Assembly (NCBI RefSeq): GCF_002895565.1
Contig: NZ_AZRN01000005.1
Coordinates: 1-64,000, forward strand
Direction: 5' to 3'
From: Petrotoga mexicana DSM 14811
Lineage (GTDB): Bacteria; Thermotogota; Thermotogae; Petrotogales; Petrotogaceae
Length of the DNA stretch: 64,000 nt
The notes beneath the pieces are model-generated. The model saw nothing but the letters and a program-made list of their open reading frames with translations. It was not told the origin of the DNA and did no database searches. Position numbers and translations under genes: made by a program. Below are positions 30,637-49,423 of this stretch, piece after piece (positions within the stretch are counted from its first letter, which is position 1; each line of letters begins with the position of its first letter).

Positions 30637-30684
30637 TTATTTTTAAAATACCTTTGGGGGGTGCTGGGCAAACTCAACTCCTTT

Positions 30685-30757
30685 TTCCTTATGGGTGGGG
30701 AGCGGGGTAAAGCAAACTCCTTTTTCCTTATGGGTGGGGAGCGGGGGAAGGGCGCTA
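30685..30757 (+). repeat. Tandem pair of G-rich repeats, inverted relative to others
   Basis: Two units, 30685-30712 and 30725-30757, each with TTATGGGTGGGGAGCGGGG on the plus strand and separated by a CAAACTCC spacer. Elsewhere in the window the G-rich strand is the minus (sense) strand; here it is the plus strand, upstream of and pointing away from the atp promoter. The 30637-30860 gap also holds the hairpin at 30795-30819. Confidence 0.88.
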
Positions 30758-30794
30758 TAACGACTTTTATAAAGACAATGAAAAATTATTGATA

Positions 30795-35632: not shown

Positions 35633-35955
35633 AGTAGGACGGTTGATCGCGAGTAGGCATACTTGGCCTATTTTGAGGAAAGTCCGGACTCTAAGGGCAA
35701 GATACTGGTTAACAACCAGAGGGAGTGATCCCTGAATAGGGCCATAGAAAAGAAGACCGCCGAAAGGCAAGGGTGGAACGGTGAGGTAAGAGCTCACCAG
35801 TGTCAGAGCGATCTGACAGCTTGGTAACCTCTATCTTGAGCAAGGTCAAGCAAGAAGGCCAGAGGTTTGCCCGCCGAGAGACTTGAGTGTCCGCCTTCTG
35901 GGTAGACCGCGTAGATTAATGGTCAACTTGACAGAATCCGGCTTATAGTCCTACT
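35633..35955 (+). ncRNA. rnpB: RNase P RNA (bacterial type A)
   Basis: The catalytic RNA that matures tRNA 5' ends. Recognised by GAGGAAAGTCCGGACTC near the 5' end, AGACCGCC in the middle and CAGAATCCGGCTTATAG near the 3' end (P4 partners). The closing P1 helix is AGTAGGAC (35633-35640) with GTCCTACT (35948-35955). About 323 nt. The 5' end starts right after the TGA of the radical SAM gene. Confidence 0.95.
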
Positions 35956-35961
35956 GATATA

Positions 35962-35998
35962 TTAAACAATGACGCCCGTTCTGGGCGTCATTGTTTAA
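35962..35998. terminator. Bidirectional terminator shared by rnpB and rplQ
   Basis: Perfect 16-bp stem TTAAACAATGACGCCC / GGGCGTCATTGTTTAA with loop GTTCT. Seven bases after rnpB and one base before the rplQ stop codon; T/A-rich stem bases give U-runs on both strands. Confidence 0.9.
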
Positions 35999-35999
35999 G

Positions 36000-36386
36000 T
36001 TATTCTTCTTTTGGGAGTAATTGGAGTATAGATAATTCTGAAGCGTCACCTTTTCTATAACCGATTTTTAATATTCTTGTGTAACCACCGTTTCTATTTT
36101 CGTATCGGGGTGCGATCTCATGTACTATTTTGTAGACTAGTTTTCTGTCGTTGAAGTGTTTGTTTATATCCCTGTTTAAAGCTACTCTCCTTTCTGGGAG
36201 ATCAGTCGAATTAGCTTCCTTGGCTTTGGTGATTATTCTTTCAACAAGGGGCCTTACGGCTTTTGCTTTTGCGGTAGTAGTGATTATACTTTCAGATTCA
36301 AATACACTTCTAGCCAAATTATTCAACAACGCTTTTCTATGGGAAGCATATCTATTTAATTTTTTAGTTTTGACTCTATGCCTCAT
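36000..36386 (-). CDS. rplQ: Ribosomal protein L17
   Basis: 128 residues; MRHRVKTKKLNRYASHRKALLNNLARS is the L17 N terminus, with YRKGDASELSILQLLP at the end. Last gene of the ribosomal cluster, overlapping rpoA by 11 bases; AAAGGGGG site inside rpoA. Confidence 0.97.
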   Translation of the reverse strand: MRHRVKTKKLNRYASHRKALLNNLARSVFESESIITTTAKAKAVRPLVERIITKAKEANSTDLPERRVALNRDINKHFNDRKLVYKIVHEIAPRYENRNGGYTRILKIGYRKGDASELSILQLLPKEE

Positions 36387-37440
36387 CGAAGGTGTTCCCC
36401 CTTTCTTCTTGGTGTAATTTTTCGTAATCTATATCAAATTTCTCACTTAGCTCTTTTTTTATCTCGTCTAAAGATTTTCTTCCAAAGTTTTTGATTTTAA
36501 GAAGGTCAGCAGGTCTTCTTTTTAATAGTTCTCCAATGGTGTCTATTTTTTCTCTTTTTAAACAGTTTTTAGCTCTTTTCGTTAAATCCAAAGAATCAAT
36601 CTGAGTTTCCACTAAATCTTTTGGCAACCCAAAAATATTTTCTTCCGCTTCTTCCTCTTCTTCTTCCTCTCTTTCAACTGAAACTTCCATTTGTTCTATA
36701 GCGCCCTCTTCTCCTTCTTTTTCCCAAAGTTTGGAAATGAAATCAAAATGTTCCATTAAAATTTTTGTTGCTTCTTTTAATGCTTCGGTGGGTGTTATGT
36801 TTTTTTTCGTCCAAATTTCAAGTATTAGCTTATCGTAGTCAGTTCTTCTTCCCACACGGATATTTTCGGTTAAATAGTTAACTTTAAGAACGGGACTGAA
36901 CACTCCATCGATGAATATATATTCGATGTCACTTTGAAATGTCAATTCTTGGGCAGGAATGAAACCTTTCCCTGCTTGAGCGTACAATTCAAAGTCTACT
37001 TCCATATCTTTATTTACATGGGCTATAACAAAATTTGGGTTGGCTATTTCTACTCCTGCCGGAGTTTTTATGTCCCCACTTTTTATGACTTGACCTGCTT
37101 TGTATTTCTTCCTCAAGCTTAATAAAATTGGGTAATCTATCTCGTTGAGACTTTCAATGTCGTCAACCTTTAATTGAACCTTTTTTAAGTTTAAAGTTAT
37201 TTCAATGATGTCTTCTTTTATACCCTCTATTGTGTCGTATTCATGTAATTTTCCTGGGATACGTAACCCGGTTATAGCCAAAGATGGAATGGACGATAAC
37301 AACACCCTTCTTAAAGCATTACCTAAAGTTATAGCATATCCTTTTTCCAGAGGAAACAATTCGTATTTTGAGTAGTTATATTCATCTTGCTCTTCCTTTT
37401 CAACTATCCTAAATTTTTCAGGTTTTATTAATATCTCCAT
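36376..37440 (-). CDS. rpoA: RNA polymerase alpha subunit
   Basis: 354 residues from ATG 37440 (MEILIKPEKF). N-terminal dimerisation domain with GYAITLGNALRRVLLSSIPSLAI; a very acidic linker (EREEEEEEEAEE, about 260-271); C-terminal DNA-contacting domain with LKREKIDTIGELLKRRPADLLKIKNFGRKSLDEIKKEL. The longer frame from GTG 37476 is rejected because GTG overlaps the Shine-Dalgarno itself and family members start at this ATG. The AAGGAGGT site is 34 bases from the ATG with a hairpin between (separate entry). Confidence 0.96.
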   Translation of the reverse strand: MEILIKPEKFRIVEKEEQDEYNYSKYELFPLEKGYAITLGNALRRVLLSSIPSLAITGLRIPGKLHEYDTIEGIKEDIIEITLNLKKVQLKVDDIESLNEIDYPILLSLRKKYKAGQVIKSGDIKTPAGVEIANPNFVIAHVNKDMEVDFELYAQAGKGFIPAQELTFQSDIEYIFIDGVFSPVLKVNYLTENIRVGRRTDYDKLILEIWTKKNITPTEALKEATKILMEHFDFISKLWEKEGEEGAIEQMEVSVEREEEEEEEAEENIFGLPKDLVETQIDSLDLTKRAKNCLKREKIDTIGELLKRRPADLLKIKNFGRKSLDEIKKELSEKFDIDYEKLHQEERGNTFDEA

Positions 37441-37445
37441 ATTTT

Positions 37446-37482
37446 CTCTGATCCTTATTGGGGAATCAGAGCACACCTCCTT
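37446..37482 (-). promoter_or_regulatory. Hairpin between Shine-Dalgarno and rpoA start
   Basis: Minus strand order: AAGGAGGT (37482-37475), GTG, stem CTCTGATTCC, loop CCAATAA, stem GGATCAGAG, AAAAT, ATG. The stem has nine pairs and one bulged T. If folded, the gap from Shine-Dalgarno to ATG shrinks from about 34 to 8 bases. No other ribosome site is seen near the ATG. Confidence 0.7.
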
Positions 37483-37535: not shown

Positions 37536-38171
37536 TTACTTAGAGTAAAGCTCTATGATGTTAATTAAAGGTACAGGAACATCCATTTCATCAATATTTG
37601 GTAGCCTTTCAAAAGTTCCTCTATAATTTTCAATTTCCACGTTTACCCAATTGGGAATATTTCTATATCCTTCTTGCACTAATTCTAATCCTTCTCGTAC
37701 TTGTTGTATGTTGCGACTCTTTTCTTTAACTTCTATTACATCCCCTACTTTAACTCTGTAAGATGGAATATTCACTTTTTTTCCGTTAACTAATATATGT
37801 CCATGAGTTACTATTTGCCTTGCCGTTCTTCTGTTTGGTGCGAAACCCATTTGATAAACTACAGAATCTAGCCTTCTTTCTAAGAGTTGCATCAAAACTT
37901 CTCCAGTTTCTCCGCTTGGGGATCTTTCTGCTTCTTCAAAAGTGTTTCTGAATTGTTTCTCCATTAAGCCGTACATTCTTTTTAAGGCTTGTTTTGATCT
38001 TAATTGCATAGCGTATTGAGTCAATTTTTGTTTTTGTCTTCCGTGTTGTCCCGGAATGTAATTTCTTTTTCTAAGGGCTGATTTCTCAGTGTAGCTTCTT
38101 TTCCCTTTTAAATAAAGGTTTATTCCTTCGCGTCGAGATAATTTTTCTAGTGGTCCTATGTACCTCGCCAT
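37536..38171 (-). CDS. rpsD: Ribosomal protein S4
   Basis: 211 residues; RYIGPLEKLSRREG start without the zinc cysteines of the C+ form, RPGQHG-like PGQHGRQKQKLTQYAMQLRSKQ, S4 RNA-binding domain RRLDSVVYQMGFAPNRRTARQIVTHGHILVNGKKVNIPS. 30S assembly protein and a likely autoregulator of the alpha operon. AAGGAGGG site. Confidence 0.97.
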   Translation of the reverse strand: MARYIGPLEKLSRREGINLYLKGKRSYTEKSALRKRNYIPGQHGRQKQKLTQYAMQLRSKQALKRMYGLMEKQFRNTFEEAERSPSGETGEVLMQLLERRLDSVVYQMGFAPNRRTARQIVTHGHILVNGKKVNIPSYRVKVGDVIEVKEKSRNIQQVREGLELVQEGYRNIPNWVNVEIENYRGTFERLPNIDEMDVPVPLINIIELYSK

Positions 38172-38599: not shown

Positions 38600-38719
38600 A
38601 AAACTTGATTTTATGTGTTAGCGCTCCTTCGCCCCGCTCCCCACCCATGTGGAAGAGGGACCTGCGGTCCCTTAAACCCCACAACTTAGCCTTAAGGATG
38701 ATGAGAAGCTCAGTTAGCT
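38600..38719 (-). repeat. G-rich dispersed repeat in rpsM-rpsK gap
   Basis: Core 38619-38652; sense GGGTGGGGAGCGGGGC with the last G-run degraded (AAGGAGCGC). Satellite hairpin GGGACC-TGC-GGTCCC at 38657-38671. Fills most of a 139-base gap in the middle of the alpha operon. Confidence 0.85.
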
Positions 38720-39599: not shown

Positions 39600-39900
39600 C
39601 TGTAAAGTACGATTTAGCGCCCTTCCCCCGCTCCCCACCCATGTGGAAGGGGGACCTGCGGTCCCTTCTTAGACCCCTCAACTTACTCATAAGGATAAAA
39701 GAATCTTTATCCCTTTTTGAAGACGGGATCCCACCCTTAGGAAAAGGGTATGGAGGGCTTCGCCCTGTAACCTTTTTAAAACCAGATACTTAATTTTGGA
39801 TAATGATTTTTAGAACTTTTTATGTAAGCTGCGCTTAGTCATTATTTGCGCCCCTTCGCCCACAGCCCACCCACAAGGATAAAAGGGATAAAGTAAGGAT
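39600..39900 (-). repeat. Two repeat copies in map-infA gap
   Basis: The 382-base gap upstream of infA holds a full copy at 39615-39648 (sense GGGTGGGGAGCGGGGG, AAGGGCGC), the GGGACC-TGC-GGTCCC hairpin at 39651-39665, a diverged middle unit with GGGC-TTC-GCCC, and a second copy at 39846-39879 in which GCCCACAGCCCACCC replaces the usual core. No gene in the gap. Confidence 0.85.
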
Positions 39901-47749: not shown

Positions 47750-47926
47750 ATGCTTTAGCGCCCCTTTGCCCCGCTCCCCACCCTAAGGAAGAACACAATA
47801 TTTTGTCCCTTCATTTCGTAGCTCCATCCATAAGGATGGGGAAAGATATCTTCACTCCGCTCCTTACCTTTTAGGATGAGCAGAAGACTTTGCCTCTTCA
47901 TCTGGTAGCCCATCCATTTGGAAACA
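47750..47926 (-). repeat. G-rich dispersed repeat in rpsC-rplP gap
   Basis: Core 47756-47789; sense GGGTGGGGAGCGGGGC with AAAGGGGCGC, four intact G-runs. Two degraded units follow up to the rpsC stop (CCATCCATAAGGATGGGG, then CCGCTCC...CCCATCCAT). Sits in the S10 operon, where this junction is normally only a few bases. Confidence 0.85.
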
Positions 47927-49364: not shown

Positions 49365-49423
49365 CTTTAGAAACTCTAAAGCTTCTGTTAGCGTCCCTTT
49401 GCCACGTTTCCCATCCAAAGTGT
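49365..49423 (-). repeat. Degenerate repeat copy in rplB-rpsS gap
   Basis: TTAGCGTCCCTTTGCCACG at 49389 and TTTCCCATCC after it: the core with several substitutions that destroy the G-runs. Preceded by the same ACTTTAGAAACTCTAAAGCT flank seen at metY and glpX-like copies. Confidence 0.7.

Follow-up and report, generated by a model that had tools for sequence, protein, structure and literature searches.

How can translation of an essential gene start from a Shine-Dalgarno sequence (SD) whose distance from the start codon is too great? This question is raised by rpoA of Petrotoga mexicana DSM 14811, which we analysed in a window of 64,000 nt of contig NZ_AZRN01000005.1 (all coordinates are window positions). 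The rpoA gene occupies 36376–37440 on the minus strand, with the ATG at 37440–37438, and encodes a protein of 354 aa that was aligned with its relatives. According to the ORF list, it belongs to an alpha-type operon (rpsM-rpsK-rpsD-rpoA-rplQ), and the site in question is the gap between rpoA and the upstream rpsD (S4; 37536–38171, minus strand), whose stop codon is separated from the rpoA ATG by 95 nt.

A hairpin lies between a distant SD and the rpoA start codon

The mRNA reads, in order, GGAAAGGAGGTG TG CTCTGATTC CCCAATAA GGATCAGAG AAAAT ATG. The initial annotation of this locus had placed an SD, AAGGAGGT, too far from the rpoA ATG, with a stem in between that restores the spacing, and all of these elements are present on the minus strand. 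The core AAGGAGGT (37482–37475) is 34 nt from the ATG. After the spacer GTG (37474–37472) comes the hairpin H2 (37471–37446), which consists of the arm CTCTGATTC (37471–37463), the loop CCCAATAA (37462–37455), and the arm GGATCAGAG (37454–37446), and the spacer AAAAT (37445–37441) leads from H2 to the ATG. The 9-bp stem had been described correctly except that its 5′ arm was written one base too long, and collapsing it leaves spacers of 3 and 5 nt, that is, the 8 nt that had been calculated. The stem has nine pairs, one of them G-U, and an 8-nt loop; its predicted energy is −11.8 kcal/mol, and it is predicted to fold identically in a longer sequence context.

Other repeats were seen around the operon. 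An almost perfect inverted repeat of 21 nt, its arms separated by 5 nt (35957–36003), directly follows rplQ and adjoins the 3′ end of the plus-strand RNase P RNA (RF00010; the match ended at 35900, the edge of the stretch searched). It resembles a shared terminator. In addition, a GC-rich repeat, GCGCCCTTCGCCCCGCTCCCCACCCATGTGGAAG...GGGACCTGCGGTCCCTT, occurs in the AT-rich region at 38613–38673, 39607–39667, 39840–39873, 47750–47783, and 49383–49416, with an inverted copy at 30679–30769; two of the copies lie between ribosomal protein genes.

The SD of rpoA is unusually long

The 16S rRNA tail of the same genome is GATCACCTCCTTTCT, read as GGATCACCTCCTTTCT. When it was compared with the leader, the SD proved longer than the annotated core: the 12-nt GGAAAGGAGGTG (37485–37474) forms 12 contiguous pairs with the tail, one of them G·U. 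Among 310 ORFs in a 464-kb sample of two genomes from the genus (the window and about one fifth of one genome), the best 16S match near any candidate start did not exceed 10 nt, a length reached in four, and the distal SD of rpoA was the longest match in the whole sample.

The same 464-kb sample was scanned for further bridged sites. A second candidate, L108 (minus strand, 2689), fell within the reading frame of prfA (RF1) and was a false hit; permuted SD words gave two similar matches. Thus, rpoA was the sole credible bridged case in this sample.

The hairpin is conserved and covaries in five families

We searched 103 Thermotogota genomes, found rpoA in 101, and read its leader in 90. An SD, a hairpin, and the ATG followed each other in this order in all 42 leaders (31 distinct spacers) read from five families: Petrotogaceae, the family of P. 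mexicana, which here includes Marinitoga lauensis; Kosmotogaceae (Mesotoga); and f6, f8, and f9, which consist of metagenome genomes. The 16S pairing was 9–12 nt long in all 42 bridged leaders and 10–12 nt in 41. Their raw SD-to-ATG distance ranged from 21 to 39 nt, and with the predicted hairpin collapsed the residual spacing was 7–10 nt in 39 of the 42, 12 nt in one, and 14 nt in two. The stem began 3 nt downstream of the SD core in 32 leaders and ended 5–7 nt before the ATG in 41.

The stem sequences vary between the families. The arms CTCTGATTC/GGATCAGAG of P. mexicana are replaced by CTCTAGATCC/GGATCGGAG in G011, TTCGATTC/GAATCGAA in G009, GGCTCGAG/CTCGAGCC in G043, CCTGGTC/GACCGGG in G047, and TGCCC/GGGCA in G023. 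In a 20-row alignment, two-sided changes were found at all nine pairs of H2, and 79% of the H2 cells were paired, compared with 64% in shuffles, a count that is lowered by the aligner, which is blind to structure and misplaced some of the arms. The covariation score was 0.41 against 0.21 ± 0.03, and none of 500 shuffles scored as high, a comparison that the relatedness of the sequences may inflate. When the register was slid as a control, the score fell from its peak at the true register. The check proposed in the initial annotation, covariation in relatives, therefore gave a strong signal that extends well beyond the genus. Because the stems differ in length and sequence, the alignment yields a weak consensus fold (−0.31 kcal/mol, four pairs). 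In dinucleotide shuffles of the 34-nt spacer, the stem energy had p = 0.001 for the own genome; the values were 0.0005–0.0145 in each of 17 genera, which are homologues, so that the combined p is no strict probability. The strongest bridge seen was in family f8 (L021, L023, and L024), where the stem GGCTCGAG/CTCGAGCC is near-palindromic and reaches −15.6 to −17.7 kcal/mol.

The remaining families are organized differently. In f4, f5, and f7, the hairpin is absent and the SD is 4–8 nt from the rpoA ATG, whereas in f3, f10, and f11 (Pseudothermotoga, Thermosipho, Fervidobacterium, and Thermotogaceae) rpoA begins directly at the stop codon of rpsD or beside it. Hence, within the phylum the long distance and the hairpin either occur together or are both absent. 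On a tree built from rpoA and partly rpsD (S4 for some rows only, without f5 and f7), the bridged label needs two changes, and two to three in bootstraps. This tree fits one or several origins, different orders of the families, and a bridge that may or may not be ancestral.

By eye, no bridged site was found in 44 rpoA leaders outside Thermotogota. Five leaders from Kiritimatiellae and Verrucomicrobia (L171, L179, L191, L196, and L203) have in common a CACCATACGRGCCGGTTAATGCCCGGTTCTGGGAGG-like hairpin sequence directly before the SD, which may represent a further conserved leader of rpoA.

An upstream hairpin can pair with the SD

Two further elements had been overlooked in the initial annotation. 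The first is the predicted hairpin H1 (37505–37474), in which CACCTC (37505–37500) pairs with GAGGTG (37479–37474) of the SD; it has an inner stem, GCTC/GGGC, and an unpaired AGGAAAG. H1 occurs in most of the Petrotogaceae, and its exact pattern had a single occurrence in each of 10 genomes. Counterparts with other arms are GCGCC with GGGTGC in the Marinitoga group and ACCTTC with GGAGGT in most Kosmotogaceae. The predicted pair probability of H1 falls from 0.67 at 37 °C to 0.46 at 65 °C, so the SD would be hidden about half the time. Syntrophomonas-type rpoA leaders (L184, L187, L189, and L199) carry CCTCTA upstream of AAGGAGGGG, which could pair with their SD as in H1.

That H1 is predicted to pair with the SD across Petrotogaceae and in most of the Kosmotogaceae suggests regulation, and for such control H1 is a better candidate than H2. 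A control point sensitive to temperature or protein binding had been suggested as a possibility for H2. Petrotoga and its relatives are heat-loving bacteria, and the predicted pair probability of H2 is 1.0 at 37 °C and still 0.98 at 65 °C; by this prediction the hairpin would be formed at that temperature, which lends no support to thermal control. Protein binding was not borne out either: the H2 sequence changes from family to family, which speaks against its recognition by a sequence-specific protein.

Tentatively, H1 and H2 could form a feedback-controlled leader, bound for example by S4, alpha, or free 30S subunits, that switches rpoA translation; such control is compatible with bridging and would be added to it. 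It would account for SD-pairing arms that differ by group and yet pair. The S4 target of the E. coli alpha operon is a pseudoknot at rpsM. That operon, which matches the present one in its content (uS13, uS11, uS4, RpoA, and bL17), is under translational control by S4 (PMC10931766). Here, however, the site is a different one, and the rpsD-rpoA gap gave no match at all in Rfam 15, with E up to 5, including to ribosomal protein leader families of the S4-binding type (alpha operon or rpsD). The lack of sequence conservation in H2 also speaks against a feedback leader, as do the absence or weakness of H1 in f6 and f8 and a fold energy that is ordinary in many genomes and unusual mainly in the Petrotoga-like group. 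Moreover, the conservation seen in H1 falls largely within the extended SD.

The residual spacing, not a proximal SD, is conserved

The second overlooked element is TAAGGA near the ATG, a weak SD-like sequence found in the own genus (−4.9 against −12.1 kcal/mol, at an aligned spacing of 8). Marinitoga and G006 carry an SD-like sequence (GGGGGT and GGAGGT, respectively) within the 3′ arm of H2 itself, 5 nt from the ATG, so that H2 could there also hide a proximal SD. Taken as a whole, these sequences, which are part of the 3′ arm or adjoin it, would fit a mainly inhibitory or regulated H2 that covers the proximal SD, with the distal SD as a standby or landing site. We consider this distinctly improbable as a general account, although a proximal SD is possible for Marinitoga and G006. 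The proximal SD-like matches, TAAGGA included, are 3–6 nt long and lack conservation, and in most bridged genomes of Kosmotogaceae, f8, and other families (e.g., G009, G015, G021, and G043) they reach only 3–5 nt; therefore, the conserved part is the residual spacing rather than a proximal SD.

No other start codon accounts for the distant SD

Could the SD serve another start? In the program-made ORF list, rpoA begins already at GTG 37476, but this codon overlaps the SD. An in-frame stop lies between the SD and the ATG in 18 of the 42 bridged leaders, excluding an upstream start there. A usable in-frame ATG, GTG, or TTG after the SD is absent in 37, and 36 have no start codon in any frame 3–14 nt after it. 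The preference of the initial annotation for the ATG over GTG 37476 thus holds, and a start at that GTG or in a small upstream reading frame is hardly credible, being already contradicted, as far as sequences can tell, by the comparison of leaders.

It is also highly improbable that H2, which does sit in a gap between operon genes, is a transcription attenuator, an RNA processing site, or a chance hairpin, as the RNA after it, AAAATATG, has no U run, the shuffles and covariation exclude chance, and no such role gives a reason for the fixed distances to the SD and the ATG.

A probable split ribosome binding site for rpoA

The comparison of leaders demonstrates, at the level of sequence, the anatomy of the site, its covariation, its constant residual spacing, and the absence of another start. 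In the bridged leaders the SD is too distant, a predicted hairpin restores the spacing, and neither an alternative start nor a conserved proximal SD is present, with Marinitoga and G006 as exceptions for the last point. We conclude, with a probability of roughly 0.8, that translation of rpoA starts at ATG 37440 and relies on a split ("accommodated") ribosome binding site like those of T4 genes 25 and 38. The proposal of structure-bridged initiation on an essential gene is in this respect supported by the strong covariation in relatives. Counting against it are the three leaders that leave 12–14 nt, TAAGGA in the own genus, the SD-like 3′ arms of Marinitoga and G006, the weak consensus fold, and H1, which is predicted to hide the SD roughly half the time.

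In the split-site mechanism, the 16S tail of the 30S subunit would land on the unpaired GGAAA beside H1 and displace the H1 arm, pairing with the unusually long SD (10–12 nt). The predicted SD-16S duplex (−19.2 kcal/mol) is stronger than H1, which makes the displacement plausible. H2 would remain folded on the ribosome between the SD and the ATG, shortening the RNA path to about 8–10 nt, bringing the ATG into the P site, and thereby probably raising translation. If the 16S tail itself displaces H1, rpoA would be expressed independently of ribosomes that terminate on rpsD and might be regulated.

To our knowledge, hairpin-bridged initiation is known mainly from two genes of phage T4. In gene 25, which has a hairpin conserved in close relatives, the SD-AUG distance is shortened from 27 to 11 nt, and in gene 38 from 22 to 5 nt (PMC3014915). 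The rpoA leader is like that of gene 25 in that an intervening hairpin makes a long distance workable, but the latter belongs to a phage gene and to T-even phages only, whereas the rpoA site belongs to an essential chromosomal gene in five families and has an SD of 10–12 nt and, upstream, a hairpin that pairs with the SD. The same differences apply to gene 38, whose residual spacing is 5 nt compared with 7–10 nt here. What is new is that the gene is essential and chromosomal, that the covariation runs deep, that the SD is over-long, and that H1 is added. In E. coli thrS, the hairpin is upstream of the SD and separates two single-stranded parts, and threonyl-tRNA synthetase exerts feedback; the rpoA leader does not have this layout, its H2 being between the SD and the ATG. 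The thrS split site indicates that the ribosome tolerates a folded hairpin within its binding region (PMC3936740). Our literature search, with most subscription papers outside its reach, found no report of chromosomal hairpin-bridged initiation and nothing on this rpoA leader.

A bridge that persists on an essential chromosomal gene in five families while its stem sequences change would demonstrate that bacteria make stable, long-term use of folded spacers, and the SD-distance rules of gene finding would be incomplete. With their many natural variants, the leaders also lend themselves to tests of how a hairpin between the SD and the start codon is held by the 30S subunit. A more specific idea, which we regard as rather unlikely, is that in Petrotogaceae and Kosmotogaceae the two hairpins make the rpoA leader a translation switch. 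In H1, a sequence that mimics the 16S tail, AUCACCUC, would hide the over-long SD while GGAAA stays free as a toehold, and H2 would hold the start codon in register after the 16S tail has displaced H1, so that rpoA translation would read out free 30S subunits (or S4/alpha). If this were true, the supply of RNA polymerase in these bacteria would be tied to the supply of ribosomes.
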